From Archivesica marissinica (taxonomy: Eukaryota; Mollusca; Bivalvia; Venerida; Vesicomyidae), in assembly GCA_014843695.1 (NCBI GenBank), contig CM026400.1, forward strand, positions 47,742,221 through 47,806,220: 64,000 bases of DNA, given 5' to 3'. Positions 1-54,612 of this stretch are shown here, one piece after another (the stretch's first letter is position 1; every line of letters begins with the position of its first letter). The notes beneath the pieces are model-generated. The model was not told the DNA's origin. It worked only from the letters and a program-made list of their open reading frames with translations, and did no database searches. Both the position numbers and the translations under genes were made by a program.

Positions 1-3000
1 ATGTCCATTATCCGAGTATTTACATAACATAGCCTCATGGCAATGTCCATTATCCAAGTATTTACATAACATAACCTCATGGCATTGTCCATTATCCAAG
101 TATTTACATAACATAACCTCATGGCAATGTCCATTATCCGAGTATTTACATAACATAACCTCATGGCAATGTCCATTATCCAAGTATTTACATAACCTCA
201 TGGCAATGTCCATTATCCAAGTATTTACATAACATAACCTCATGGCATTGTCCATTATCCGAGTATTTACATAACATAACCTCATGACATTGTCCATTAT
301 CCGAGTATTTACATAACATAACCTCATGGCAATGTCCATTATCCAAGTATTTACATAACATAGCCTCATGGCAATGTCCATTATCCAAGTATTTACATAA
401 CATAACCTCATGGCAATGTCCATTATCCAAGTATTTACATAACATAGCCTCATGGCATTGTCCATTATCCGAGTATTTACATAACATAACCTCATGGCAA
501 TGTCCATTATCCGAGTATTTACATAACATAACCTCATGACATTGTCCATTATCCGAGTATTTACATAACATAGCCTCATGGCAATGTCCATTATCCAAGT
601 ATTTACATAACATAACCTCATGGCAATGTCCATTATCCGAGTATTTACATAACATAACCTCATGGCATGTCCATTATCCGAGTATTTACATAACATAACC
701 TCATGGCATTGTCCATTATCCAGTATTTACATAACATAACCTCATGGCAATGTCCATTATCCGAGTATTTACATAACATAACCTCATGGCATTGTCCATT
801 ATCCAGTATTTACATAACATAACCTCATGGCATTGTCCATTATCCGAGTATTTACATAACATAACCTCATGGCATTGTCCATTATCCAAGTATTTACATA
901 ACATAACCTCATGGCAATGTCCATTATCCGAGTATTTACATAACATAACCTCATGGCAATGTCCATTATCCGAGTATTTACATAACATAACCTCATGGCA
1001 TTGTCCATTATCCGAGTATTTACATAACATAACCTCATGGCAATGTCCATTATCCAAGTATTTACATAACATAACCTCATGGCAATGTCCATTATCCGAG
1101 TATTTACATAACATAACCTCATGGCAATGTCCATTATCCGAGTATTTACATAACATAACCTCATGGCATTGTCCATTATCCGAGTATTTACATAACATAA
1201 CCTCATGGCAATGTCCATTATCCGAGTATTTACATAACATAACCTCATGGCAATGTCCATTATCCGAGTATTTACATAACATAACCTCATGGCATTGTCC
1301 ATTATCCGAGTATTTACATAACATAACCTCATGGCATTGTCCATTATCCAAGTATTTACATAACATAACCTCATGGCATTGTCCATTATCCGAGTATTTA
1401 CATAACATAACCTCATGGCAATGTCCATTATCCGAGTATTTACATAACATAACCTCATGGCATTGTCCATTATCCAAGTATTTACATAACATAACCTCAT
1501 GGCAATGTCCATTATCCGAGTATTTACATAACATAGCCTCATGGCAATGTCCATTATCCAAGTATTTACATAACATAACCTCATGGCAATGTCCATTATC
1601 CGAGTATTTACATAACATAACCTCATGGCAATGTCCATTATCCGAGTATTTACATAACATAACCTCATGGCATTGTCCATTATCCGAGTATTTACATAAC
1701 ATAACCTCATGGCATTGTCCATTATCCGAGTATTTACATAACATAACCTCATGGCATTGTCCATTATCCGAGTATTTACATAACATAACCTCATGGCAAT
1801 GTCCATTATCCGAGTATTTACATAACATAACCTCATGGCATTGTCCATTATCCGAGTATTTACATAACATAACCTCATGGCAATGTCCATTATCCGAGTA
1901 TTTACATAACATAACCTCATGGCATTGTCCATTATCCGAGTATTTACATAACATAACCTCATGGCATTGTCCATTATCCAAGTATTTACATAACATAACC
2001 TCATGGCAATGTCCATTATCCGAGTATTTACATAACATAACCTCATGGCAATGTCCATTATCCGAGTATTTACATAACATAACCTCATGGCATTGTCCAT
2101 TATCCGAGTATTTACATAACATAGCCTCATGGCATTGTCCATTATCCAAGTATTTACATAACATAACCTCATGGCATTGTCCATTATCCAAGTATTTACA
2201 TAACATAACCTCATGGCAATGTCCATTATCCGAGTATTTACATAACATAGCCTCATGGCAATGTCCATTATCCAAGTATTTACATAACATAACCTCATGG
2301 CATTGTCCATTATCCGAGTATTTACATAACATAACCTCATGGCAATGTCCATTATCCGAGTATTTACATAACATAACCTCATGGCAATGTCCATTATCCG
2401 AGTATTTACATAACATAACCTCATGGCAATGTCCATTATCCGAGTATTTACATAACATAACCTCATGGCAATGTCCATTATCCGAGTATTTACATAACAT
2501 AACCTCATGGCATTGTCCATTATCCGAGTATTTACATAACATAGCCTCATGGCAATGTCCATTATCCGAGTATTTACATAACATAACCTCATGGCAATGT
2601 CCATTATCCGAGTATTTACATAACATAACCTCATGGCATTGTCCATTATCCAAGTATTTACATAACATAACCTCATGGCAATGTCCATTATCCGAGTATT
2701 TACATAACATAACCTCATGGCATTGTCCATTATCCAAGTATTTACATAACATAACCTCATGGCATTGTCCATTATCCGAGTATTTACATAACATAACCTC
2801 ATGGCACTGTCCATTATCCGAGTATTTACATAACATAGCCTCATGACATTGTCCATTATCCGAGTATTTACATAACATAACCTCATGGCATTGTCCATTA
2901 TCCAAGTATTTACATAACATAGCCTCATGGCATTGTCCATTATCCAAGTATTTACATAACATAACCTCATGGCAATGTCCATTATCCGAGTATTTACATA

Positions 3001-5025
3001 ACATAACCTCATGGCAATGTCCATTATCCGAGTATTTACATAACATAACCTCATGGCAATGTCCATTATCCGAGTATTTACATAACATAACCTCATGGCA
3101 ATGTCCATTATCCGAGTATTTACATAACATAACCTCATGGCATTGTCCATTATCCGAGTATTTACATAACATAACCTCATGGCATTGTCCATTATCCGAG
3201 TATTTACATAACATAACCTCATGGCAATGTCCATTATCCGAGTATTTACATAACATAACCTCATGGCAATGTCCATTATCCGAGTATTTACATAACATAA
3301 CCTCATGGCATTGTCCATTATCCGAGTATTTACATAACATAACCTCATGGCAATGTCCATTATCCGAGTATTTACATAACATAACCTCATGGCATTGTCC
3401 ATTATCCGAGTATTTACATAACATAACCTCATGGCAATGTCCATTATCCGAGTATTTACATAACATAACCTCATGGCATTGTCCATTATCCGAGTATTTA
3501 CATAACATAACCTCATGGCATTGTCCATTATCCGAGTATTTACATAACATAACCTCATGGCATTGTCCATTATCCGAGTATTTACATAACATACCTCATG
3601 CATTGTCCATTATCCGAGTATTTACATAACCTCATGGCATTGTCCATTATCCAAGTATTTACATAACATAACCTCATGGCATTGTCCATTATCCGAGTAT
3701 TTACATAACATAACCTCATGGCAATGTCCATTATCCGAGTATTTACATAACATAACCTCATGGCAATGTCCATTATCCGAGTATTTACATAACATAACCT
3801 CATGGCAATGTCCATTATCCGAGTATTTACATAACATAACCTCATGGCATTGTCCATTATCCGAGTATTTACATAACATAACCTCATGGCAATGTCCATT
3901 ATCCGAGTATTTACATAACATAACCTCATGGCATTGTCCATTATCCAAGTATTTACATAACATAACCTCATGGCATTGTCCATTATCCGAGTATTTACAT
4001 AACATAGCCTCATGGCATTGTCCATTATCCAAGTATTTACATAACATAACCTCATGGCATTGTCCATTATCCAAGTATTTACATAACATAACCTCATGGC
4101 ATTGTCCATTATCCGAGTATTTACATAACATAACCTCATGGCAATGTCCATTATCCGAGTATTTACATAACATAACCTCATGGCATTGTCCATTATCCAA
4201 GTATTTACATAACATAACCTCATGGCATTGTCCATTATCCGAGTATTTACATAACATAGCCTCATGGCATTGTCCATTATCCAAGTATTTACATAACATA
4301 ACCTCATGACATTGTCCATTATCCAAGTATTTACATAACATAACCTCATGGCATTGTCCATTATCCGAGTATTTACATAACATAACCTCATGGCATTGTC
4401 CATTATCCGAGTATTTACATAACATAGCCTCATGGCATTGTCCATTATCCAAGTATTTACATAACATAACCTCATGGCAATGTCCATTATCCGAGTATTT
4501 ACATAACATAACCTCATGACATTGTCCATTATCCGAGTATTTACATAACATAGCCTCATGGCATTGTCCATTATCCAAGTATTTACATAACATAACCTCA
4601 TGGCAATGTCCATTATCCAAGTATTTACATAACATAACCTCATGGCATTGTCCATTATCCAAGTATTTACATAACATAACCTCATGGCATTGTCCATTAT
4701 CCGAGTATTTACATAACATAGCCTCATGGCATTGTCCATTATCCAAGTATTTACATAACATAACCTCATGGCATTGTCCATTATCCAAGTATTTACATAA
4801 CATAACCTCATGGCAATGTCCATTATCCAAGTATTTACATAACATAACCTCATGGCAATGTCCATTATCCGAGTATTTACATAACATAACCTCATGGCAA
4901 TGTCCATTATCCAAGTATTTACATAACATAACCTCATGGCAATGTCCATTATCCGAGTATTTACATAACATAACCTCATGGCAATGTCCATTATCCGAGT
5001 ATTTACATAACATAACCTCATGGCA
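1..5025. repeat. 42-bp satellite array, about 120 copies
   Basis: Head-to-tail repeat of a 42-bp unit that begins ATGTCCATTATCCGAG and ends CCTCATGGCA; the array is cut by the window start. Copies differ almost only at a few positions (CGAG/CAAG, GGCAATG/GGCATTG, CATAACC/CATAGCC, ATGG/ATGA). Rare length changes occur, for example near 197, 666, 722, 805 and 3592-3630. Because 42 is a multiple of three, several frames on both strands stay open for hundreds of codons; this is not coding evidence. It lies in or upstream of the intron preceding the exon at 5525. Confidence 0.97.
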
Positions 5026-5046
5026 TACAGTGTAAGTTTATTAGTT

Positions 5047-21221: not shown

Positions 21222-21440
21222 AAGTGGCAGCCGTGGTCGCGCGTTACCTTCCGGTGTGAACGAGCCGGAGCTCGTGCCTAGCTGTAGCCCCTTAGTCAAG
21301 ACATTTAAATTCCACATTGCTTCTTCTCTCTCCTTCGTAGGCGATGGGTTCCATCAGGAATGAGGTCTCGAGCGTGATTAATATAAGTTGTAGGAACTTG
21401 TTTCGCAATTGAGCTAAATAAATTTGTATAAACTATTGCA
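21222..21440 (+). mobile_element. SINE family 4
   Basis: Head remnant GGTCGCGCGTTACCTTCCGG, then TTTAAATTCCACATTGCTTC, TTCCATCAGGAATGAGGTC, GTGATTAATATAAGTTG and CGCAATTGAGCTAAATAAAT. Confidence 0.85.
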
Positions 21441-21526
21441 ATCAGTCTGTTGTAGAGTTGTGTTTTATTTAATGTGTCATGTTTTGTATTCACATGTATA
21501 TGTAAAACGAATCGAGCAATAAAAAA

Positions 21527-22490
21527 ATGGATTGTCCATTGAGTTGGATTGAGTTTATTCCAACCCAAAACGGAACCCGTTATGTTTGGATTGATTGTCC
21601 GAGTGTGTTCCAACCCGGAACGGAACCCGCTATGTTTGGATTGATTGTCCTGAGTTTGTTCCAACCCGGAACGGAACCCGCTATGTTTGCATTGATTGTC
21701 CTGAGTTTATTCCAACCAGGAACGGAACCCGCTATGTTTGGATTGATTGTCCTGAGTGTGTTCCAACCCGGAACGGAACCCGCTATGTTTGCATTGATTG
21801 TCCTGAGTGTGTTCCAACCCGGAACGGAACCCGCTATGTTTGCATTGATTGTCCTGAGTGTGTTCCAACCCGGAACGGAACCCGCTATGTTTGCATTGAT
21901 TGTCCTGAGTGTGTTCCAACCCGGAACGGAACCCGCTATGTTTGGATTGATTGTCCTGAGTGTGTTCCAACCCGGAACGGAACCCGCTATGTTTGCATTG
22001 ATTGTCCTGAGTGTGTTCCAACCCGGAACGGAACCCGCTATGTTTGCATTGATTGTCCTGAGTGTGTTCCAACCCGGAACGGAACCCGCTATGTTTGCAT
22101 TGATTGTCCTGAGTTTGTTCCAACCCGGAACGGAACCCGCTATGTTTGGATTGATTGTCCTGAGTTTATTCCAACCCGGAACGGAACCCGCTATGTTTGG
22201 ATTGATTGTCCTTAGTTTGTTCCAACCCGGAACGGAACCCGCTATGTTTGCATTGATTGTCCTGAGTTTATTCCAACCAGGAACGGAACCCGCTATGTTT
22301 GGATTGATTGTCCTGAGTTTATTCCAACCCGGAACGGAACCCGCTATGTTTCGATTGATTGTCCTGAGTTTATTCCAACCCGGAACGGAACCCGCTATGT
22401 TTGGATTGATTTTCCTGAGTTTGTTCCAACATGCACGGACCGGAACCTGCTATATTTGGATTGAGTGTCCTGAGTTTGTTCTGAGTTTGT
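21527..22490. repeat. 51-bp minisatellite, locus A
   Basis: Unit TTCCAACCCGGAACGGAACC followed by CGCTATGTTTGCATTGATTG and TCCTGAGTGTG; about 18 copies. Codon-multiple length makes three frames open. It ends against GTTTTCACTGATGTAATTTC and CGCTTTAA, the right end of the TTAA-type MITE (see 44679). Confidence 0.95.
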
Positions 22491-22529
22491 ATAAATTTGC
22501 GTTTTCACTGATGTAATTTCGCTTTAATA

Positions 22530-22780
22530 CAAAGAGGAAAACACATATTCACATGAAAGTGATGCACTGTATCTCATTGTACGTAGGAAATTAATCATAA
22601 ATGCACCTATATTATAAAGGACTTGTGGTGAACGTGGTTTTCCTTTCTCATTGAAAGCTTCATCGCGCACTTAAACATATGGTTATATATATATATATAC
22701 TTATATACAAGGAGTGACACGTTATTAAGGAAATGAGAAATAAATAGTTCGGCCTGATATAGGGCATACAGAGGAGGGTG
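22530..22780. other. Unannotated stretch with (TA)n
   Basis: AT-rich, with a short (TA)n at about 22685; nothing else supported. Confidence 0.5.
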
Positions 22781-22784
22781 GGGT

Positions 22785-22915
22785 TTAAAGTCCTCTACAA
22801 CAGCTTAGGTCATGTTGCGAGTATCCAGTTATTAGTGATGGAGTAAGACCCCGGGTGCCCCTCCGAGCAGTATGGACGGGCATCCGAGTAGAACCACCAA
22901 CCCTCCGGTCCATCT
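22785..22915 (+). mobile_element. SINE family 2 fragment
   Basis: TTATTAGTGATGGAGTAAGA and GGGTGCCCCTCCGAGCAGTA match the 3' body of the copy at 9279. Confidence 0.6.
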
Positions 22916-22929
22916 GTAGCCGATTATAT

Positions 22930-23062
22930 CGGACATATTTTTTTTTTATTTATACAAATTTAATTTAGCTCGATTGCGAAACAAATTATTTCAACTTATA
23001 TAAATCACTCTCGAGACCTCATTCCTGATGGAATCCATCGCCACGAGGGAGAGAGAGGCAAT
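22930..23062 (-). mobile_element. SINE family 4, 3' half
   Basis: Inverted tail TTTAGCTCGATTGCGAAACA and AATCACTCTCGAGACCTC, then GAGGGAGAGAGAGGCAATGT; truncated head. Confidence 0.8.
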
Positions 23063-23363
23063 GTGGAAGTGGACATTGTTTGTGGATAGGTGCGGTTATG
23101 ACCGGTGATGTGTATTGCACAACTAGAAGACGCCATTGATTCTCAAGTTTAGAATGTTGACCAAGTTACGAACTATTAATGCGGACCGATGTGACTAAAT
23201 GTCGATAACATTATGCGGTAATTATGTGAGTCATGAAACACGTAGATCATTTTACTGTTCGAATTTTGCTTTGTTATGTTTCCAGTTTGATATAAAGGTG
23301 TGTCAATGGTTTGTCAGCAACATATGTCGACATTCATTATACATGTATAATTGTATAAACATG

Positions 23364-23873
23364 TACACTAGAGGACATAGAAAACGTACACCTACATTAT
23401 ATGATTATTATTAATTGAAAACGAAATACGAAGGATTCCATCAAAGATATACATTTTTGTTTTGTTTAATCATATTATATTGCTTATTTATATACAATAC
23501 AATTACAAATATAAACATGGTAAATATATAAGCAAAATGATACAACTGCAATGCTATGCTTATACTTGCACAGTGCACGAATACAATCTAGAAGCAAATG
23601 GGTTGCTGGGCAACAAGTTTTACCAACATTAGCTAGTGCCCTCCCCAAATATACATGTATCACCTCTTTATTACAAAACACAAAATGAACAATTACAAAA
23701 CACAAAATGAACAATTACAAAACACAAAATGAACAATTACAAAACACAAAATGAACAACTAAAAATATTCCAGAATGATTAAAACTATGTATTTATATAG
23801 TTATTGTTTTTCATGTGAATACATACTTATCCGAAGTGTGCGTTTTCTATGTCCTTTAGTATACAAATGTTAT
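23364..23873 (+). mobile_element. Complete copy of the GGACATAGAAAACG-TIR transposon
   Basis: The left end TACACTAGAGGACATAGAAA and inverted right end TATACTAAAGGACATAGAAA form TIRs of about 28 bp beginning at TA. About 510 bp, non-coding. The interior has GAAAACGAAATACGAAGGAT near the left end, a 22-bp tandem (CAATTACAAAACACAAAATG..) near 23690-23755, and TTATATAGTTATTGTTTTTC near the right end. Here each TIR is single copy. The same TIR is massively tandem at 33299-39563 and 45254-45440. It fits a TA-inserting Tc1/mariner-like MITE, but that is inference. Confidence 0.8.
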
Positions 23874-26016: not shown

Positions 26017-26782
26017 CGATTCCGGAACGGAATCGGAACGGAACCCACTACGTTTGGATTGATTGTCCTGAGTGTGTTCCAACCGGACTTGAACCCGCTA
26101 TGTTTGGATTGATTGTCCGAGTGTGTTCCAACCCGGAACGGAACCCGCTATGTTTGGATTGATTGTACTGAGTTTATTCCAACATGCACGGACCGGAACC
26201 CGCTACGTTTGGATTGATTGTCCTGAGTTTGTTCCAACCCGGAACGGAACCCGCTATGCTTTGGATTGCTTGTACTGAGTTTGTTCCAACCAGGAACGGA
26301 ACCCGCTACGTTTTGGATTGCTTGTCCTGAGTTTGTTCCAACCCGGAACGGAACCCGCTACGTTTGGATTGATTGTCCTGAGTTTGTTCCAACCCGGAAC
26401 GGAACCCGCTATGCTTTGGATTGCTTGTACTGAGTTTGTTCCAACCAGGAACGGAACCTGCTATGCTTTGGATTGCTTGTACTGAGTTTGTTCCAACCAG
26501 GAACGGAACCCGCTATGCTTTGGATTGCTTGTACTGAGTTTGTTCCAACCCGGAACGGAACCCGCTATGCTTTGGATTGCTTGTACTGAGTTTGTTCCAA
26601 CCAGGAACGGAACCCGCTATGTTTGGATTGATGTCCTGAGTTTGTTCCAACCAGGAACGGAACCCGCTATGTTTTGGATTGCTTGTACTGAGTTTGTTCC
26701 AACCCGGAACGGAACCCGCTACGTTTTGGATTGATTGTCCTGAGTTTGTTCCAACCCGGAACGGAACCCGCTCCGCTTAGTT
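26017..26782. repeat. 51/52-bp minisatellite, locus B
   Basis: Same unit as locus A (TTCCAACCCGGAACGGAACC...), many copies with an extra T (ATGCTTTGGATTGCTTGTAC). About 15 copies. Confidence 0.95.
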
Positions 26783-32298: not shown

Positions 32299-33298
32299 NN
32301 NNNNNNNNNNNNNNNNNNNNNNNNNNNNNNNNNNNNNNNNNNNNNNNNNNNNNNNNNNNNNNNNNNNNNNNNNNNNNNNNNNNNNNNNNNNNNNNNNNNN
32401 NNNNNNNNNNNNNNNNNNNNNNNNNNNNNNNNNNNNNNNNNNNNNNNNNNNNNNNNNNNNNNNNNNNNNNNNNNNNNNNNNNNNNNNNNNNNNNNNNNNN
32501 NNNNNNNNNNNNNNNNNNNNNNNNNNNNNNNNNNNNNNNNNNNNNNNNNNNNNNNNNNNNNNNNNNNNNNNNNNNNNNNNNNNNNNNNNNNNNNNNNNNN
32601 NNNNNNNNNNNNNNNNNNNNNNNNNNNNNNNNNNNNNNNNNNNNNNNNNNNNNNNNNNNNNNNNNNNNNNNNNNNNNNNNNNNNNNNNNNNNNNNNNNNN
32701 NNNNNNNNNNNNNNNNNNNNNNNNNNNNNNNNNNNNNNNNNNNNNNNNNNNNNNNNNNNNNNNNNNNNNNNNNNNNNNNNNNNNNNNNNNNNNNNNNNNN
32801 NNNNNNNNNNNNNNNNNNNNNNNNNNNNNNNNNNNNNNNNNNNNNNNNNNNNNNNNNNNNNNNNNNNNNNNNNNNNNNNNNNNNNNNNNNNNNNNNNNNN
32901 NNNNNNNNNNNNNNNNNNNNNNNNNNNNNNNNNNNNNNNNNNNNNNNNNNNNNNNNNNNNNNNNNNNNNNNNNNNNNNNNNNNNNNNNNNNNNNNNNNNN
33001 NNNNNNNNNNNNNNNNNNNNNNNNNNNNNNNNNNNNNNNNNNNNNNNNNNNNNNNNNNNNNNNNNNNNNNNNNNNNNNNNNNNNNNNNNNNNNNNNNNNN
33101 NNNNNNNNNNNNNNNNNNNNNNNNNNNNNNNNNNNNNNNNNNNNNNNNNNNNNNNNNNNNNNNNNNNNNNNNNNNNNNNNNNNNNNNNNNNNNNNNNNNN
33201 NNNNNNNNNNNNNNNNNNNNNNNNNNNNNNNNNNNNNNNNNNNNNNNNNNNNNNNNNNNNNNNNNNNNNNNNNNNNNNNNNNNNNNNNNNNNNNNNNN
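32299..33298. other. Assembly gap (1000 N)
   Basis: Exactly 1000 N, a conventional placeholder length. Any reading frame drawn across it is meaningless. Confidence 0.99.
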
Positions 33299-36200
33299 CC
33301 TACATTATATACTAGAGGACATAGAAAACGCACACCTACATTATATACTAGAGGACATAGAAAACGCACACCTACATTATATACTAGAGGACATAGAAAA
33401 CGCACACCTACATTATATACTAGAGGACATAGAAAACGCACACCTACATTATATACTAGAGGACATAGAAAACGCACACCTACATTATATACTAGAGGAC
33501 ATAGAAAACGCACACCTACATTATATACTAGAGGACATAGAAAACGCACACCTACATTATATACTAGAGGACATAGAAAACGCACACCTACATTATATAC
33601 TAGAGGACATAGAAAACGCACACGTACATTATATACTAGAGGACATAGAAAACGCACACCTACATTATATACTAGAGGACATAGAAAACGCACACCTACA
33701 TTATATACTAGAGGACATAGAAAACGCACACCTACATTATATACTAGAGGACATAGAAAACGCACACCTACATTATATACTAGAGGACATAGAAAACGCA
33801 CACCTACATTATATACTAGAGGACATAGAAAACGCACACCTACATTATATACTAGAGGACATAGAAAACGCACACCTACATTATATACTAGAGGACATAG
33901 AAAACGCACACCTACATTATATACTAGAGGACATAGAAAACGCACACCTACATTATATACTAGAGGACATAGAAAACGCACACCTACATTATATACTAGA
34001 GGACATAGAAAACGCACACCTACATTATATACTAGAGGACATAGAAAACGCACACCTACATTATATACTAGAGGACATAGAAAACGCACACCTACATTAT
34101 ATACTAGAGGACATAGAAAACGCACACCTACATTATATACTAGAGGACATAGAAAACGCACACCTACATTATATACTAGAGGACATAGAAAACGCACACC
34201 TACATTATATACTAGAGGACATAGAAAACGCACACCTACATTATATACTAGAGGACATAGAAAACGCACACCTACATTATATACTAGAGGACATAGAAAA
34301 CCACACCTACATTATATACTAGAGGACATAGAAAACGCACACCTACATTATATACTAGAGGACATAGAAAACGCACACCTACATTATATACTAGAGGACA
34401 TAGAAAACGCACACCTACATTATATACTAGAGGACATAGAAAACGCACACCTACATTATATACTAGAGGACATAGAAAACGCACACCTACATTATATACT
34501 AGAGGACATAGAAAACGCACACCTACATTATATACTAGAGGACATAGAAAACGCACACCTACATTATATACTAGAGGACATAGAAAACGCACACCTACAT
34601 TATATACTAGAGGACATAGAAAACGCACACCTACATTATATACTAGAGGACATAGAAAACGCACACCTACATTATATACTAGAGGACATAGAAAACGCAC
34701 ACCTACATTATATACTAGAGGACATAGAAAACGCACACCTACATTATATACTAGAGGACATAGAAAACGCACACCTACATTATATACTAGAGGACATAAA
34801 ACGCACACCTACATTATATACTAGAGGACATAGAAAACGCACACCTACATTATATACTAGAGGACATAGAAAACGCACACCTACATTATATACTAGAGGA
34901 CATAGAAAACGCACACCTACATTATATACTAGAGGACATAGAAAACGCACACCTACATTATATACTAGAGGACATAGAAAACGCACACCTACATTATATA
35001 CTAGAGGACATAGAAAACGCACACCTACATTATATACTAGAGGACATAGAAAACGCACACCTACATTATATACTAGAGGACATAGAAAACGCACACCTAC
35101 ATTATATACTAGAGGACATAGAAAACGCACACCTACATTATATACTAGAGGACATAGAAAACGCACACCTACATTATATACTAGAGGACATAGAAAACGC
35201 ACACCTACATTATATACTAGAGGACATAGAAAACGCACTCCTACATTATATCTAGAGGACATAGAAAACGCATACCTACATTATATACTAGAGGATATAG
35301 AAAACGCACACCTATATTATATACTAGAGGACGTAGAAAACGCACGCCTACATTATATACTAGAGGACATAGAAAACGCACACCTACATTATATACTAGA
35401 GGACATAGAAAACGCACACCTACATTATATACTAGAGGACATAGAAAACGCACACCTACATTATATACTAGAGGACATAGAAAACGCACACCTACATTAT
35501 ATACTAGAGGACATAGAAAACGCACACCTACATTATATACTAGAGGACATAGAAAACGCACACCTACATTATATACTAGAGGACATAGAAAACGCACACC
35601 TACATTATATACTAGAGGACATAGAAAACGCACACCTACATTATATACTAGAGGACATAGAAAACGCACACCTACATTATATACTAGAGGACATAGAAAA
35701 CGCACACCTACATTATATACTAGAGGACATAGAAAACGCACACCTACATTATATACTAGAGGACATAGAAAACGCACACCTACATTATATACTAGAGGAC
35801 ATAGAAAACGCACACCTACATTATATACTAGAGGACATAGAAAACGCACACCTACATTATATACTAGAGGACATAGAAAACGCACACCTACATTATATAC
35901 TAGAGGACATAGAAAACGCACACCTACATTATATACTAGAGGACATAGAAAACGCACACCTACATTATATACTAGAGGACATAGAAAACGCACACCTACA
36001 TTATATACTAGAGGACATAGAAAACGCACACCTACATTATATACTAGAGGACATAGAAAACGCACACCTACATTATATACTAGAGGACATAGAAAACGCA
36101 CACCTACATTATATACTAGAGGACATAGAAAACGCACACCTACATTATATACTAGAGGACATAGAAAACCACACCTACATTATATACTAGAGGACATAGA

Positions 36201-38884
36201 AAACGCACACCTACATTATATACTAGAGGACATAGAAAACGCACACCTACATTATATACTAGAGGACATAGAAAACGCACACCTACATTATATACTAGAG
36301 GACATAGAAAACGCACACCTACATTATATACTAGAGGACATAGAAAACGCACACCTACATTATATACTAGAGGACATAGAAAACGCACACCTACATTATA
36401 TACTAGAGGACATAGAAAACGCACACCTACATTATATACTAGAGGACATAGAAAACCACACCTACATTATATACTAGAGGACATAGAAAACGCACACCTA
36501 CATTATATACTAGAGGACATAGAAAACGCACACCTACATTATATACTAGAGGACATAGAAAACGCACACCTACATTATATACTAGAGGACATAGAAAACG
36601 CACACCTACATTATATACTAGAGGACATAGAAAACGCACACCTACATTATATACTAGAGGACATAGAAAACGCACACCTACATTATATACTAGAGGACAT
36701 AGAAAACGCACACCTACATTATATACTAGAGGACATAGAAAACGCACACCTACATTATATACTAGAGGACATAGAAAACGCACACCTACATTATATACTA
36801 GAGGACATAGAAAACGCACACCTACATTATATACTAGAGGACATAGAAAACGCACACCTACATTATATACTAGAGGACATAGAAAACGCACACCTACATT
36901 ATATACTAGAGGACATAGAAAACGCACACCTACATTATATACTAGAGGACATAGAAAACGCACACCTACATTATATACTAGAGGACATAGAAAACGCACA
37001 CCTACATTATATACTAGAGGACATAGAAAACGCACACCTACATTATATACTAGAGGACATAGAAAACGCACACCTACATTATATACTAGAGGACATAGAA
37101 AACGCACACCTACATTATATACTAGAGGACATAGAAAACGCACACCTACATTATATACTAGAGGACATAGAAAACGCACACCTACATTATATACTAGAGG
37201 ACATAGAAAACGCACACCTACATTATATACTAGAGGACATAGAAAACGCACACCTACATTATATACTAGAGGACATAGAAAACGCACACCTACATTATAT
37301 ACTAGAGGACATAGAAAACGCACACCTACATTATATACTAGAGGACATAGAAAACGCACACCTACATTATATACTAGAGGACATAGAAAACGCACACCTA
37401 CATTATATACTAGAGGACATAGAAAACGCACACCTACATTATATACTAGAGGACATAGAAAACGCACACCTACATTATATACTAGAGGACATAGAAAACG
37501 CACACCTACATTATATACTAGAGGACATAGAAAACGCACACCTACATTATATACTAGAGGACATAGAAAACGCACACCTACATTATATACTAGAGGACAT
37601 AGAAAACGCACACCTACATTATATACTAGAGGACATAGAAAACGCACACCTACATTATATACTAGAGGACATAGAAAACGCACACCTACATTATATACTA
37701 GAGGACATAGAAAACGCACACCTACATTATATACTAGAGGACATAGAAAACGCACACCTACATTATATACTAGAGGACATAGAAAACGCACACCTACATT
37801 ATATACTAGAGGACATAGAAAACGCACACCTACATTATATACTAGCGGACATAGAAAACGCACACCTACATTATATACTAGAGGACATAGAAAACGCACA
37901 CCTACATTATATACTAGAGGACATAGAAAACGCACACCTACATTATATACTAGAGGACATAGAAAACGCACACCTACATTATATACTAGAGGACATAGAA
38001 AACGCACACCTACATTATATACTAGAGGACATAGAAAACGCACACCTACATTATATACTAGAGGACATAGAAAACGCACACCTACATTATATACTAGAGG
38101 ACATAGAAAACGCACACCTACATTATATACTAGAGGACATAGAAAACGCACACCTACATTATATACTAGAGGACATAGAAAACGCACACCTACATTATAT
38201 ACTAGAGGACATAGAAAACGCACACCTACATTATATACTAGAGGACATAGAAAACGCACACCTACATTATATACTAGAGGACATAGAAAACGCACACCTA
38301 CATTATATACTAGAGGACATAGAAAACGCACACCTACATTATATACTAGAGGACATAGAAAACGCACACCTACATTATATACTAGAGGACATAGAAAACG
38401 CACACCTACATTATATACTAGAGGACATAGAAAACGCACACCTACATTATATACTAGAGGACATAGAAAACGCACACCTACATTATATACTAGAGGACAT
38501 AGAAAACGCACACCTACATTATATACTAGAGGACATAGAAAACGCACACCTACATTATATACTAGAGGACATAGAAAACGCACACCTACATTATATACTA
38601 GAGGACATAGAAAACGCACACCTACATTATATACTAGAGGACATAGAAAACGCACACCTACATTATATACTAGAGGACATAGAAAACGCACACCTACATT
38701 ATATACTAGAGGACATAGAAAACGCACACCTACATTATATACTAGAGGACATAGAAAACGCACACCTACATTATATACTAGAGGACATAGAAAACGCACA
38801 CCTACATTATATACTAGAGGACATAGAAAACGCACACCTACATTATATACTAGAGGACATAGAAAACGCACACCTACATTATAT
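33299..38884. repeat. 36-bp satellite, about 155 copies, derived from a transposon TIR
   Basis: Unit CCTACATTATATACTAGAGG + ACATAGAAAACGCACA. Nearly all units are identical. Changes cluster at 35235-35350; the same one-base loss (AAAACCACACC) recurs near 34301, 36169 and 36455. The unit contains the TIR of the transposon complete at 23364-23873, and the array runs directly into that element's subterminal sequence at 38885 (ATTATATGATTATTATTTAC, GAAAACGAAATAC). The array is cut by the gap, so the copy number is a minimum. Confidence 0.97.
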
Positions 38885-39563
38885 GATTATTATTTACATG
38901 AAAACGAAATACTATTACATGTTTAGTTTAGGCTATTAAATTCCAGTTGGCTTTCAAGCCCATGAGGACATACATACATAATATATACAGTTAGCGAACA
39001 GTGCAAACATAATGCATACATACATTTATACAAATGAGCTCCCACAATCATAGCCATTTATATCTATGTGTAAATACTAAATACATGTAATATTTATCTG
39101 ATATGTGTCTTATAATTAAAGCAAAACAAGTCTTTATTTCTAACACGGAGAAGGTCAAAAGACGCAACAAAACACAAAACCAAACATACAAAATTGAAGT
39201 TGTTGCAAAGTTACATGAACACGAAATACGAAGGATTCCATCACAGATATATCACATCTTTATTATAAAACACAAACTAAACAACTAAACATATTCCAAA
39301 ATGTTTAAAACTATGTATTTATATAGTTATTGTTTTTCATGTAAAACACACACTTATCCGAAGTGTGCGTTTTCTATGTCCTCTAGTATAGTGTACTTAT
39401 CCGAAGTGTGCGTTATCTATGTCCTCTAGTATAGTGTACTTATCCGAAGTGTGCGTTTTCTATGTCCTCTAGTATAGTGTACTTATCCGAAGTGTGCGTT
39501 TTCTATGTCCTCTAGTATAGTGTACTTATCCGAAGTGTGCGTTTTCTATGTCCTCTAGTATAG
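38885..39563 (+). mobile_element. Body and right end of the GGACATAGAAAACG-TIR transposon, with insertion and tandem right TIR
   Basis: 38885-38912 is the left subterminal region. A 298-bp insertion (38913-39210) is bounded by 19-bp direct repeats TTACATGAAAACGAAATAC / TTACATGAACACGAAATAC. The body resumes (GAAGGATTCCATCACAGATA, TATATAGTTATTGTTTTTCA) to the right TIR. There a 43-bp unit (ACTTATCCGAAGTGTGCGTT, TTCTATGTCCTCTAGTATAG, TGT) is tandem about 5 times (39352-39563). With the array at 33299 this is one element whose two ends have both been amplified. Confidence 0.78.
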
Positions 39564-39755
39564 TAAACACTTGGTGCACAAACCAGGATACCCGACAAAG
39601 CTGACGATTAGACCTATATCACAAACACGAGTAGGTTATTTTTGGTAATCCAGGAAGATGTCCCAATCTCGATAAATTACATCCGAGCTACACCAACAAT
39701 GCAGGGGGAAGTGTTGGTGTTTTTACTTCGTATCCGAACATAACCAGGGAAAATA

Positions 39756-43978: not shown

Positions 43979-44047
43979 GATGAATAAATTGCGAACATAC
44001 CTTCATATAAGCACCCTCTATTTCAGCAATAGTTGTGTCAAACTCGT
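43979..44047 (-). pseudogene. Partial duplicate of the SSNA1 exon 3' end with its donor site
   Basis: About 68 bases match 44322-44389 with two or three changes: the last about 45 coding bases, the GTATGT donor and about 20 intron bases. No acceptor or 5' part. It lies 343 bp downstream of the true exon on the minus strand and could act as a decoy donor or exon remnant. Confidence 0.88.
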
Positions 44048-44111
44048 ATATTTATATGACTGACCAGGCAAAATATATCAACGCCTGTTTCCAGGCTATC
44101 TAGGCTATCTG

Positions 44112-44316
44112 CTTGAGAGAGAGAGGAAGAGAGGGAGAGGGGGAGATTGAGAGGGAGAGGAATGGAGGGAGAGGAGGGAGAGTGCGAGGGTATGCGGGAG
44201 AGAGGGCGGGAGGGAGAAGAGGGAGAGAGGGGAGGTGAGATGGAGGGAAGGAAGGAAGGAAGGAAGGAAGGAGGGAGGGAGGGAGGGAGGGAGGGAGGGA
44301 GGGAGGGAGGGAGAAG
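44112..44316. repeat. Purine-rich low-complexity tract, (GGGA)n/(GGAA)n
   Basis: GAGA, GGGAGAG, then (GGAA)n and (GGGA)n; it separates the true SSNA1 exon from its partial duplicate. Confidence 0.95.
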
Positions 44317-44343
44317 AAGCCAATGAATAAATTGCGAACATAC

Positions 44344-44543
44344 CTTCATATAAGCACCCTCTGTTTCAGCAATAGTTTTGTCAAACTCGTTTCTCGAGGC
44401 CATTTTCTGACTCAAACTCTCGTTGACCTTGGCGAGTTTCTCCGTCAATATTCTGATATCATTCTGAAGTTTCTGTTTTTCCTCCTCTTCTTGCATGATC
44501 TGCTTGTGAAGTTCATCTCTCTTCCCACACAGGTCATTGATAC
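44344..44543 (-). CDS. SSNA1: SSNA1 (microtubule-associated coiled-coil protein), internal exon
   Basis: On the minus strand an acceptor (TAACTTGCAG) precedes 200 exonic bases and a GTATGT donor follows. The exon starts with two bases of a split Cys codon and encodes 66 residues including [36 protein letters not shown] and [20 protein letters not shown]. The order and sequence match the central part of human SSNA1 (NA14; 119 residues), roughly residues 19-84, by recollection of the family. SSNA1 is a short, almost entirely coiled-coil protein that forms fibrils, binds microtubules and sits at centrosomes and ciliary basal bodies. The heptad-rich charged composition is visible here. The first exon (about 18 residues) and the last (the KILESSQTLL part) were not found in the window. 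Odd: a partial duplicate of its 3' end at 43979, and a transposon end only about 50 bases from its acceptor. Confidence 0.93.
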
Positions 44544-44595
44544 CTGCAAGTTACCAGTCGCTATATATTATCCTTATTATTATCCAAAACCCGAG

Positions 44596-45442
44596 GACAT
44601 AGAAAACGCACACTTCGGATACGTGTATTTTTACATGAAAAACAATAACTATATAAATACATATATGCATTTTCTTAAAGCGACATTACCTTGCAAAAAG
44701 CAAATAAAATGCATTTTTTCACTTATAAATGCATTGCTACTACACATTATTTCGAACACTAACATTGAATCAATAAACAGTGTTTTTTGGATTGAAAGTA
44801 GAATTTCATATAACGGTCATCAATGCTCCTGAATTGAGGTTTGTTTGTCATCGGAGTCAATTCTAAACGCGAGATAATGTCGTTTAGAGATAATTTAACT
44901 AAGAATAGTCTACAAATAAATAGGCACAACTACGAGATATAACGGTAAATATCTACCATAAATCGTGTTATTCAGGATACACGAGTATTACGCATGGATG
45001 TTTTTATGTCAACAAACTGCGTATATGACGATTGTTTATTAGTTGAAATACTCAGTATGTGAGGCAAATATTTGGGGAAATATTATACCATATAATAGGA
45101 AAATAAATTATGTAGACATTTGTGTTTTCACTGATGTAGTGTCGCTTTAAAGTTCTTCAGTTTGTGTTTTGTAACTTTTGTAATAAATATATGATATATC
45201 TTTGATGGAAGCCTTCGTATTTCGTTTTCATGTACATAATAATCATATAATGTAGGTGTGCGTTTTCTATGTCCTCTAGTATATAATGTAGGTGCGCGTT
45301 TTCTATGTCCTCTAGTATATAATGTAGATGTGCGTTTTCTATGTCCTCTAGTATATAATGTAGGTGTGCGTTTTCTATGTCCTCTAGTATATAATGTAGG
45401 TGTGCGTTTCTATGTCTCTAGTATATAATGTAGGTGGTGCGT
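44596..45442 (-). mobile_element. GGACATAGAAAACG-TIR transposon, inverted, with nested MITE and 6-copy TIR array
   Basis: One end at 44596 (GAGGACATAGAAAACGCACA, single TIR); the other, at 45254-45442, is the inverse 36-bp unit (ATAATGTAGGTGTGCGTTTT...) about 6 times, decaying outward. Between are the same subterminal blocks as at 23364. A 468-bp TTAA-flanked MITE (44679-45146) is inserted. Confidence 0.82.
44679..45146. mobile_element. TTAA-target MITE (piggyBac-like), nested
   Basis: TTAA at 44675-44678 and 45147-45150; ends AGCGACATTAC and, inverted, AGCGACACTAC. Sister copy at 46541-46990; right-end fragments at about 22500 and 56936. TTAA targets are the hallmark of piggyBac-type elements. 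No transposase. Confidence 0.82.
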
Positions 45443-45499
45443 TTTTAGGTCCTAATTGTCGTATTTTATAAATCCATTGTACTATTATAATCATGTACT

Positions 45500-46530: not shown

Positions 46531-46540
46531 TCTATTTAAA

Positions 46541-46990
46541 GCGCCACTACATCGGTGAAAAGTCAAACGTTCTACATTGTATATGGTATAATTGTTTTGC
46601 TTTTTTAATATTTGTCTCGTATACCACGTTTGTTGGCATAACAAAATAATGTATACATAGGGTCAACATGCATGCGTAATACAACGTGTGTATTTTGAAT
46701 AACACGATTTGTGGTACATATTTACCGTTATATCTCACAGTTCTGCCTATGCATATTTAATTGTTTACACATCTGATTAGATTTTCTCCAAATGTCAGTA
46801 TCGGACTCCAATAATAAAAACAAACGTAAATTCAGGAGCGTGGCTGACCGCTATATGAAATCCTACTTTCGCTTGTGATAGTTTATAGACTACAAAAGCA
46901 CAGTTTATTGATTCGATGAATTTGTAGCAGCAATATATTTGTACGAAAAAAACCCGCATTTTTTTTGCTTTTTGCGATGTAATGTCGCTT
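46541..46990. mobile_element. TTAA-target MITE (piggyBac-like)
   Basis: TTAA at 46537-46540 and 46991-46994; ends AGCGCCACTACATCG and, inverted, AAGCGACATTACATCGC. Opposite orientation to the nested copy at 44679. Confidence 0.85.
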
Positions 46991-47102
46991 TTAAGCGTTG
47001 TAGTAATCAACAGTAAACTAACTCATAAATGACGGACACACCCATTGCAAGGTGACGGGCAATTGTCGGCCCCCCTCGTCAACAAACCGATCACGGAAAC
47101 TC

Positions 47103-49775: not shown

Positions 49776-52700
49776 CTAGAAACCGAGGTCTTCTGTATTG
49801 GTTATGTACACCGGACACGTTAAACAACCAAGAATGTTTCTGTAATCTATAAACCGAGGCCTCCTGTATTGGTTATGTACATCGGACACGTTAAACAACC
49901 AAGACTGTTTCTGGAATCTATAAACCGAGGTCTCCTTTATTGGTTATGTACACCGGACACGTTAAACAACCATGAATGTTTCTGAAATCTATAAACTGAG
50001 GTCTCCTGTAGTGGTTATGTACACCGGACACGTTAAACAACCAAGAATGTTTCTGTAATCTATAAACCGAGGTCTCCTGTAGTGGTTATGTACATCTGAC
50101 ACGTTAAACAACCATGAATGTTTCTGTAATCTATAAACCGAGGTCTCCTTTATTGGTTATGTACACCGGACACGTTAAACAACCATGAATGTTTCTGAAA
50201 TCTATAAACCGAGGCCTCCTGTATTGGTTATGTACACCGGACACGTTAAACAACCAAGAATGTTTCTGTAATCTATAAACCGAGGTGTCGTGTATTGGTT
50301 ATGTACACCGGACACGTTAAACAACCAAGAATGTTTCTGTAATCTATAAACCGAGGTGTCGTGTATTGGTTATGTACACCGGACACGTTAAACAACCATG
50401 AATGTTTCTGAAATCTATAAACCGAGGTCTCCTTTATTGGTTATGTACACCGGACACGTTAAACAACCAAGAATGTTTCTGTAATCTATAAACTGAGGTC
50501 TCCTGTAGTGGTTATGTACATCGGACACGTTAAACAACCAAGAATGTTTCTGTAATCTATAAACCGAGGTATCCTGTATTGGTTATGTACACCGGACACG
50601 TTAAACAACCAAGACCGTTTCTGTAATCTATAAACCGAGGTGTCGTGTATTGGTTATGTACACCGGACACGTTAAACAACCAAGACTATTTCTGGAATCT
50701 ATAAACCGAGGTGTCGTGTATTGGTTATGTACACCGGACACGTTAAACAACCAAGAATGTTTCTGTAATCTATAAACCGAGGTCTCCTGTAGTGGTTATG
50801 TACATCGGACACGTTAAACAACCAAGACCGTTTCTGTAATCTATAAACCGAGGTATCCTGTATTGGTTATGTACACCGGACACGTTAAACAACCAAGACT
50901 ATTTCTGGAATCTATAAACCGAGGTGTCGTGTATTGGTTATGTACACCGGACACGTTAAACAACCAAGACTATTTCTGGAATCTATAAACCGAGGTGTCG
51001 TGTATTGGTTATGTACACCGGACACGTTAAACAACCATGAATGTTTCTGTAATCTATAAACCGAGGTCTCCTTTATTGGTTATGTACACCGGACACGTTA
51101 AACAACCATGAATGTTTCTGTAATCTATAAACCGAGGTCTCCTTTATTGGTTATGTACACCGGACACGTTAAACAACCAAGAATGTTTCTGTAATCTATA
51201 AACCGAGGTCTTCTTTATTGGTTATGTACACCGGACACGTTAAACAACCAAGAATGTTTCTGGAATCTATAAACCGAGGTGTCGTGTATTGGTTATGTAC
51301 ACCGGACACGTTAAACAACCATGAATGTTTCTGAAATCTATAAACCGAGGTCTCCTTTATTGGTTATGTACACCGGACACGTTAAACAACCAAGAATGTT
51401 TCTGTAATCTATAAACCGAGGTCTCCTGTAGTGGTTATGTACATCGGACACGTTAAACAACCAATAATGTTTCTGTAATCTATAAACCGAGGTATCCTGT
51501 ATTGGTTATGTACACCGGGCACGTTAAACAACCAAGACCGTTTCTGTAATCTATAAACCGAGGTGTCGTGTATTGGTTATGTACACCGGACACGTTAAAC
51601 AACCAAGACTATTTCTGGAATCTATAAACCGAGGTGTCGTGTATTGGTTATATACACCGGACACGTTAAACAACCAAGAATGTTTCTGTAATCTATAAAC
51701 CGAGGTCTCCTGTAGTGGTTATGTACATCGGACACGTTAAACAACCAAGAATGCTTCTGTAATCTATAAACCGAGGTATCCTGTATTGGTTATGTACACC
51801 GGGCACGTTAAACAACCAAGACCGTTTCTGTAATCTATAAACCGAGGTGTCGTGTATTGGTTATGTACACCGGACACGTTAAACAACCAAGACTATTTCT
51901 GGAATCTATTAACCGAGGTGTCGTGTATTGGTTATGTACACCGGACACGTTAAACAACCAAGACTGTTTCTGGAATCTATAAACCGAGGTGTCGTGTATT
52001 GGTTATGTACACCGGACACGTTAAACAACCAAGACTATTTCTGGAATCTATAAACCGAGGTGTCGTGTATTGGTTATGTACACCGGACACGTTAAACAAC
52101 AATGAATGTTTCTGTAATCTATAAACCGAGGTCTCCTTTATTGGTTATGTACACCGGACACGTTAAACAACCATGAATGTTTCTGTAATCTATAAACCGA
52201 GGTCTCCTTTATTGGTTATGTACACCGGACACGTTAAACAACCAAGAATGTTTCTGTAATCTATAAACCGAGGTCTCCTTTATTGGTTATGTACACCGGA
52301 CACGTTAAACAACCAAGAATGTTTCTGGAATCTATAAACCGAGGTGTCGTGTATTGGTTATGTACACCGGACACGTTAAATAACCATGAATGTTTCTGAA
52401 ATCTATAAACCGAGGTCTCCTTTATTGGTTATCTACACCGGACACGTTAAACAACCAAGAATGTTTCTGTAATCTATAAACCGAGGTATCCTGTATTGGT
52501 TATGTACACCGGGCACGTTAAACAACCAAGACCGTTTCTGTAATCTATAAACCGAGGTGTCGTGTATTGGTTATGTACACCGGACACGTTAAACAACCAA
52601 GACTATTTCTGGAATCTATAAACCGAGGTGTCGTGTATTGGTTATGTACACCGGACACGTTAAACAACCAAGAATGTTTCTGTAATCTATAAACCGAGGT

Positions 52701-53733
52701 CTCCTGTAGTGGTTATGTACATCGGACACGTTAAACAACCAAGAATGCTTCTGTAATCTATAAACCGAGGTATCCTGTATTGGTTATGTACACCGGACAC
52801 GTTAAACAACCAAGACTATTTCTGGAATCTATTAACCGAGGTGTCGTGTATTGGTTATGTACACCGGACACGTTAAACAACCAAGACTGTTTCTGGAATC
52901 TATAAACCGAGGTGTCGTGTATTGGTTATGTACACCGGACACGTTAAACAACCAAGAATGTTTCTGTAATCTATAAACCGAGGTCTCCTGTAATGGTTAT
53001 GTACACCGGACACGTTAAACAACCAAGAATGTTTCTGTAATCTATAAACCGAGGTGTCCTGTATTGGTTATGTACATCGGACACGTTAAACAACCAAGAC
53101 TGTTTCTGTAATCTATAAACCGAGGTCTACTGTATTGGCTATGTACGCCGGACACGTTAAACAACCAAGACTGTTTCTGGAATCTATAAACCGAGGTCTC
53201 CTGTAGTGGTTATGTACACCGGACACGTTAAACAACCAAGAGTGTTTCTGTAATCTATAAACCGAGGCCTCCTGTATTGGTTATGTACACCGGACACGTT
53301 AAGCAACCAAGAATGTTTCTGGAATCTATAAACCGAGGCCTCCTGTATTGGTTATGTACACCGGACACGTTAAACAACCAAGACTGTTTCTGTAATCTAT
53401 AAACCGAGGTATCCTGTATTGGTTATGTACACCGGACACGTTAAACAACCAACACTGTTTCTGTAATCTATAAACCGAGGCCTCCTGTATTGGTTATGTA
53501 CACCGGACACGTTAAACAACCAACACTGTTTCTGTAATATATAAACCGAGGTATCCTGTAGTGGTTATGTACACCGGACACGTTAAACAACCAAGACTGT
53601 TTCTGTAATATATAAACCGAGGTCTCCTGTAGTGGTTATGTACACCGGACACGTTAAACAACCAAGAATGTTTCTGTAATCTATAAACCGAGGTCTTCTG
53701 TATTGGTTATGTACACCGGACACGTTAAACAAC
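49776..53733. repeat. 71-bp satellite, about 56 copies, derived from a SINE core
   Basis: Unit AAACCGAGGTCTCCTGTATT, GGTTATGTACACCGGACACG, TTAAACAACCAAGAATGTTT, CTGTAATCTAT. Aligns over its length with the family-1 core (AAACCGAGGTCTCGTGTCGG, ...TTTACACCGTGCACG, TAAAAGAACCAG, CTCTGGAAT). Multi-unit blocks recur at spacings that are multiples of 71. Confidence 0.93.
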
Positions 53734-54612
53734 CAAGGTGTAAGCAAGGCACATCACACACATTGCTTAGTACCCGTTAACCACGTAGGGTCCCGGTTTC
53801 GATACTCGGTCAGGGCACGTAGTTGACGGTGTAAGCAAGCACACCACACACATTGCTTAGTACCCGTTAACCTAATAGGGTCCCGGTTTCGATACTCGGT
53901 CAGAGCACGTATTTGACGGTGTAAGCAAGGCACATCACACACATTGCTTAGTACCCGTTAACCACGTAGGGTCCCGGTTTCGATACTCGATCAGGACACG
54001 TATGTTACGGTGTAAGCAAGGCACATCACACACATTGCTTAGTACCAGTTAACCACGTATGGTCCCGGTTTCGATACTCGGTCAGGGTACGTATGTGACG
54101 GTGTAAGCAAGGCACACCACACACATTGCTTAGTACCCGTTAACCACGTAGGGTCCCGGTTTCGATACTCGGTCAGGGCACGTATGTGACGCTGTAAGCA
54201 AGGCACATAACACACATTGCTTAGTACCAGTTAACGACGTAGGGTCCCGGTTTCGATACTCGGTCAGGGTACGTATGTGACGGTGTAAGCAAGGCACAAC
54301 ATACACATTGCTTAGTACCAGTTAATCACGTAGGGTCCCGGTTTCGATACTCGATCAGGACACGTATGTTGCGGTGTAAGCAAGCACACCACACACATTG
54401 CTTAGTACCAGTTAACCACGTAGGGTCCCGGTTTCGATACTCGATCAGGACACGTATGTTACGGTGCAAGCAAGCACACCACACACATTGCTTAGTATCA
54501 GTTAACCACGTAGGGTCCCTGTTTCGATACTCGGTCAGGGCACGTATGTGATGGTGTAAGCAAGCACACCACACACATTGCTTAGTACCCGTCAACAGCT
54601 TAGGTCGGCCAA
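53734..54612. repeat. 91-bp tandem repeat, about 9.6 copies
   Basis: Unit GGTGTAAGCAAGGCACATCA, CACACATTGCTTAGTACCCG, TTAACCACGTAGGGTCCCGG, TTTCGATACTCGGTCAGGGC, ACGTATGTGAC. Begins at the exact end of the 71-bp array. GGTTTCGATACTC is box B-like, but no full tRNA fold is seen. Confidence 0.95.

Follow-up and report, generated by a model that had tools for sequence, protein, structure and literature searches.

The left terminus of a short TA-target transposon family as a satellite-like array of variable length in the bivalve Archivesica marissinica

The window analysed here, a stretch of 64,000 nucleotides from the bivalve Archivesica marissinica (C15:47742221-47806220, in an assembly of 1,537,303,305 bases and 2,808 contigs), contains a long tandem array of a 36-bp unit, which Tandem Repeats Finder (TRF) places at 33299-38884 with 155.3 copies. 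The array forms the left end of a short transposon-like element, called copy B below, that is bounded by terminal inverted repeats (TIRs). Copy B and its surroundings comprise:

32299..33298, no strand: assembly gap of 1000 N, which conceals the outer end of the array
33299..38884, plus strand: left end of copy B, 155 units of 36 bp, each TA + 26-bp TIR + CTACATTA (TRF and unit-by-unit cut)
38885..39351, plus strand: body of copy B, with about 300 bp extra, relative to the 170-bp family body, between near-identical 19-bp stretches at 38890-38910 and 39211-39229
39352..39564, plus strand: right end of copy B, 5 units of 43 bp with the TIR inverted and a TA at the end (TRF, 5.0 copies)

The count of 155 is a minimum, because the array abuts the gap and its outer end is not visible. 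Cut unit by unit, the array has 145 units identical to the consensus and 14 edits in 5,586 bp. Long homogeneous tandem arrays, the hallmark of a satellite, are thus present here and again at a locus with 121 units (L010). A preliminary description, made from the sequence alone, had reported a nearly identical 36-bp satellite of more than 5.5 kb whose unit contains a transposon end, which is joined directly to the element body and whose opposite end is also tandem; all four statements hold. Each unit consists of TA, the 26-bp TIR and 8 bp of subterminal sequence, and the innermost unit continues into subterminal sequence matching that of a single-TIR copy at 23364. An exact 28-nt inverted repeat, TATACTAGAGGACATAGAAAACGCACAC, is common to both ends and, among the pairs listed for copy B, matches any of several left units with four of the five right units. 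One single-base deletion is common to three of the ten variant units and may be a sequencing or consensus error. That resemblance, together with the adjoining gap, is what would be expected if the assembler had made the length or homogeneity of the array; such an artefact is highly improbable, since arrays of 2 to 41 units have both flanks resolved at many loci.

The element has many relatives in the 1.54 Gb assembly. The TIR 19-mer gives 37,000 + 37,887 exact matches (74,887; reversed control 0 + 0), the left end extended by 18 bp of interior gives 872 + 826 = 1,698 (control 0), and an 89-mer of the right end gives 41 + 38, a complete list spread over 17 large contigs and 2 small ones. A consensus of 66 copies has 170 bp between the TIR cores, with a mean divergence of 3.6%. 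The whole element is 222 bp long, including a 26-bp TIR at each end, and is non-coding; a 170-bp body leaves no space for a transposase. Short, bounded by TIRs, numerous and without coding capacity, it has the features of a miniature inverted-repeat transposable element (MITE). Tc1/mariner elements are recognised by duplication of a TA target. Of 61 paired elements, 52 have TA at each outer end, and the empty paralogous site of a very short derivative (L024, at 3905) has one unambiguous TA. The empty sites of two copies with arrays (L078, 18 left units; L059, 4 units of 45 bp) also have TA, but inside TATATA runs. A further candidate, the match between the flanks of L041 and L024 (one of four spanning flank matches), turned out to be a TIR match and was discarded as an empty site. 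The family is a putative non-autonomous Tc1/mariner-type MITE, with its class assigned by the TA target site. Copies with arrays occupy separate TA insertion sites. The TIR 19-mer has no match in viral and prokaryotic contig collections and the right-subterminal 25-mer none in viral contigs, results that say little about relatives; the translated array has no protein match at E <= 0.001 in viral and prokaryotic collections, which says equally little.

TIR copies were counted per end and per locus, as the preliminary description had proposed, in two samples. Loci were drawn from 16 regions around the 100 TIR matches listed, 40 regions of contig C1 with left-end matches and 40 of the 79 right-end places. 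Duplicates (L011, L018, L019, L101) and overlaps (L001-L008) were removed before counting. Ends within 300 bp were taken as pairs, those further apart were left out, and the counts are minima for arrays that run up to the limit of the fetched sequence. The left-ascertained C1 sample (38 loci, 28 pairs) has an array on the left only in 16 pairs, on the right only in 0, at both ends in 2 and at neither in 10 (sign test p 3e-5); for the right-ascertained genome-wide sample (39 loci, 30 pairs) the figures are 15, 3, 0 and 12 (p 0.0075). Left copy number runs from 1 to 41 (mean about 12) in the C1 sample and from 1 to 29 (mean about 7) in the other, several of the largest being minima, and right copy number from 1 to 7 and from 1 to 5, respectively. 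Arrays at both ends are thus exceptional (2/28 and 0/30 paired elements), and the window copy carries the largest array seen. The expansion belongs to one end of a many-copy element family. The left TIR is a hypervariable minisatellite in at least about half of the copies sampled, and the right end is usually single. A transposon end that has turned satellite-like, with 1 to at least 155 copies depending on the site, is a habit of the whole family, and the window array is one big example of it.

An existing 36-bp satellite could have been captured as the ends of a MITE, and L010 gives some colour to this, as its 121 units have no element interior in the 7.5 kb fetched. The preliminary description had allowed that the array might be primary if most 36-bp arrays lacked the transposon body. 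Where this could be tested, among the 16 regions from listed TIR matches, five of the six arrays of at least 8 units lie on element interior. Elements with one TIR at each end (10/28 and 12/30) carry the same TIR on both sides, in exact inverted orientation and at TA sites, and units of 29, 36, 40 and 45 bp share the TIR while differing in the length of subterminal sequence included. Capture of a satellite is very unlikely.

A less specific account is that any short sequence can become an array in this genome, a transposon end being one substrate among others. The window is rich in such arrays, 19 listed ones making up 23,099 of its 62,269 known bases. One of them, a 71-bp array at 49776-53737 (about 56 copies), corresponds to the central part of a dispersed repeat, about 280 bp long, that is tRNA-like, hence SINE-like (resembling short interspersed nuclear elements), and is not a TIR. 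Besides the query, this repeat has 13 other window copies of at least 200 bp, five with a tRNA-Thr-like head. Ordinary minisatellite growth does not predict a left/right difference where both ends have the same TIR, nor units that start at the transposon terminus instead of in flanking DNA, and as a full explanation we consider it rather unlikely. The left edge of the 71-bp array passes into SINE-like sequence. At 2-5026, the edge of the window, lies a 42-bp array (120 copies) that has no dispersed copies in the window.

The joints between units are highly regular. At 1,363 of 1,404 joints in 73 arrays, subterminal sequence passes straight into the terminus TATACTAGA, given the tolerances of the script; the remaining 41 (40 of them inspected) are mostly indel variants or pairs flanking a degenerate unit. 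A few extra bases occur at the joint in two cases, the 43-bp right array of the window (ACAC) and the right end of L085. Almost every joint opens at the transposon terminus, a hint that transposase or end repair is involved. On the left, joints lie at offsets 29 (1 locus), 36 (51), 37 (1), 40 (3), 42 (1), 45 (8) and 52 (1), with single joints also at 43 and 44; on the right they lie at 36 (1), 38 (3), 48 (L038, L083, L069) and 43 (window). The 36-bp joint is found at 51 of the 93 sources examined, so the first TIR duplication was not made at the window locus. L014 has 29-bp units, the TIR plus one base, beside a very short and almost palindromic element interior. L022 and L088 have units of the left type beyond a right end, suggesting that the two ends exchange sequence via the shared TIR.

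Some of these offsets coincide with TA dinucleotides, found in the element interior at 29, 34, 36, 42, 45 and 48 on the left and at 34, 46 and, in some copies, 38 on the right. An element might enter such a TA in the subterminal region of another copy, the nested remainder being lost and the second TIR, now in tandem, expanding. Insertion at TA would account for the left joints at 29, 36, 42 and 45, and nested insertion has been proposed for the duplicated TIRs of plant Mutator-like elements (MULEs), in the text available of that study (PMC3310237). Self-insertion alone was attractive from the first joints and was weakened by those at left 37, 40 and 52 and right 43 and 48, which are off the consensus TA. 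TA is also frequent enough (6 of 41 offsets tested) for chance agreement to come easily, and no intact nested intermediate was seen, though no search was aimed at one. As the sole origin of the arrays it is doubtful.

Two further copies in the window can be compared with copy B:

23366..23861, plus strand: copy A, one TIR per end, with TA on either side (23364-23365 and 23862-23863)
44593..45453, minus strand: copy C, with about 6 x 36 bp at the left end (45245-45453, TRF 5.9 copies) and a single right TIR whose outermost bases are altered (44593)
about 44675..45150, no strand: TTAA-bounded element nested inside copy C and outside the TIR family, with a relative at 46535-46991

Copy A, at 23364-23873 in the preliminary description, had been taken there for the complete element. 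It is a composite: about 23448-23605 is foreign, part of another dispersed repeat, and resembles the sequence flanking an unrelated insertion site elsewhere (that of L059), and a 22-bp tandem repeat of four copies lies at 23670-23765; the family element is 222 bp. Copy C, given there as 44596-45442 with one TIR single and the other about sixfold, spans 44593-45453 and contains the nested element. Subterminal sequence at both ends is common to A, B and C. Private differences in 186 aligned ungapped columns of shared blocks number 13 in A, 2 in B and 8 in C, making B and C the closest pair; three unrooted copies do not prove kinship. B and C have the identical 36-bp joint. Beside copy C, an open reading frame at 44038-44550 (minus strand) may encode a protein like the coiled-coil SSNA1; Pfam gives a weak match below the cut-off and PDB none. 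A 927-aa open reading frame matches three metagenomic proteins. Near copy A, a second TIR-like element (21310-23068) has a 51-bp array at 21550-22481 between 120-bp inverted repeats that are 88% identical, and this array is related to another at 26034-26772.

Copies with 1, 6 and more than 155 units had been read as a route from MITE to satellite. No relation is seen between the number of TIRs and the divergence of the body (Spearman rho 0.10, p 0.45, 66 elements), so the three are not supported as successive stages, and single-TIR and array elements are equally diverged in both samples; the joint shared by 51 of the 93 sources also speaks against such a route. Within the window, array units differ from their consensus by 0.13% and the body by 2.35%, which supports a long array that is much younger than the body of copy B and grew after insertion. 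The earlier phrase 'amplified in place' accordingly applies to the growth of the long array and not to the first TIR duplication. Across 32 loci, half the pairwise diversity within arrays averages 1.55% against 2.9% for the body and is lower in 21 (Wilcoxon p 0.0017), and divergence of units from their consensus averages 1.98%, below that of the body in 20 (p 0.043); in about ten right-end-ascertained loci the search pattern fixes 70 of the 170 body bases and lowers body divergence, which works against the test for a younger array. Units within a locus are 1.16 differences per 36 bp apart, compared with 1.35 when shuffled, a modest effect reached in none of 200 shuffles. The short arrays of L037 and L041 are more diverged than their bodies, consistent with having been carried along with the element. 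The best reading of this history is that the left end was duplicated long ago, in an event shared among copies, that copies with several TIRs are mobile, that local growth and loss recur, and that the window saw a recent burst.

The array is probably the left end of a MITE that targets TA, and the left TIR of this element became a hypervariable minisatellite by terminus-anchored duplication followed by local growth and loss. The duplication would have arisen several times, giving left units of 29, 36, 40 and 45 bp and right units of 36, 38, 43 and 48 bp. It could originate either in insertion of a TIR into the element's own subterminal TA or in template switching at the TA end during repair of the excision gap. 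Multi-TIR copies would then have transposed with their extra TIRs, copy number later moving up and down locally via unequal exchange or slippage, and the window locus may represent a recent runaway to at least 155 units. Several findings weigh against this account. The mean left copy number multiplied by 1,698 left ends falls well below 74,887 TIRs, so long arrays outside the samples must account for much of the copy number, and these could lack a body. In 11-12 of the 32 loci the array is no younger than the body, so some arrays are not recent local products. The joints that do not fit a subterminal TA, strictly including the one at right 36, mean that self-insertion alone does not explain the joints. 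A TIR-specific pathway is not claimed, mainly because arrays can also arise from parts of dispersed elements other than TIRs, as the 71-bp array shows. More tentatively, the end might be self-renewing: transposase or repair of the cut would copy the terminus onto itself flush with the cleavage, any unit, being a complete end in itself, could serve as the outer one, copy number would be reset at each jump and grow between jumps, and one end would be privileged by its subterminal sequence. If true, this would yield a broad range of 1 to more than 155 copies without a trend with age.

Among the first 100 left-end matches, a listing that covers C1, units of 45 bp and mixtures of 45 and 36 bp cluster at 48.65-50.64 Mb, near the middle of this 100.7-Mb contig (L059-L064); the cluster is possibly a centromeric or pericentromeric block. 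Spacings between matches on C1 repeat (281-285 kb vs 330-334 kb; 3320 vs 3405 kb), which marks these places as duplicated segments or as haplotypes that the assembly left unmerged.

Satellite birth out of transposons is, as a rule, inferred from a handful of end states. In this family there are many separate insertions with a constant body, a variable number of end units, several independent unit lengths and empty sites. The opposite end, which has the same TIR and stays single, is a built-in control, and the first step (duplication of the terminus) and the second (local growth) are separately testable in one genome. Titles and abstract openings in the literature revealed no TA-target MITE with one terminus as a minisatellite over many insertions, which is weak evidence of absence, subscription papers lying mostly outside the search.

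The preliminary description had likened the element to Foldback, a kinship that we reject. Foldback target duplications are about 8-10 bp in the available text of PMC4079207, and the TA found here differs; the TIR is 26 bp, and long internally repetitive TIRs at both ends are lacking, with both-end arrays as rare as counted above. Much is already known from other systems: satellite arrays from TIR repeats (Tetris), variation of end repeats (Galileo), tandem whole TIRs (MULEs) and MITE-linked arrays (Xenopus), and in the accessible part of a review its table gives the TIR as array source for Tetris and Xstir (PMC9659126). The following comparisons likewise extend to the accessible parts of each source. 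Tetris, with its TIR-220 repeat in Drosophila virilis, is also a non-autonomous TIR element with variable numbers of end repeats, which form kb-size satellite-like arrays of up to 66 copies; its repeats of about 220 bp lie inside long TIRs and its target duplication is 8-10 bp, whereas the unit here is the terminus itself, 36 bp long, at TA and usually at one end (PMC4079207). In Galileo of Drosophila mojavensis the number of tandem repeats likewise changes independently at the two ends; unlike the present case, the repeats (about 210 bp, 2-3 copies) lie inside long TIRs, and the element belongs to the P superfamily (PMC3573991). Plant tandem-TIR MULEs share the tandem duplication of a whole TIR in copies that move, and nested insertion and slippage are both considered there; they differ in having few copies of long TIRs, in belonging to the Mutator family and in that no satellite arrays are described in them (PMC3310237). 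Xenopus Xmix/Xstir and miDNA4 are MITE-linked tandem arrays too, miDNA4 being a Tc1/mariner MITE, but there the repeat is described as internal to the MITE (PMC12628747, PMC6004289).

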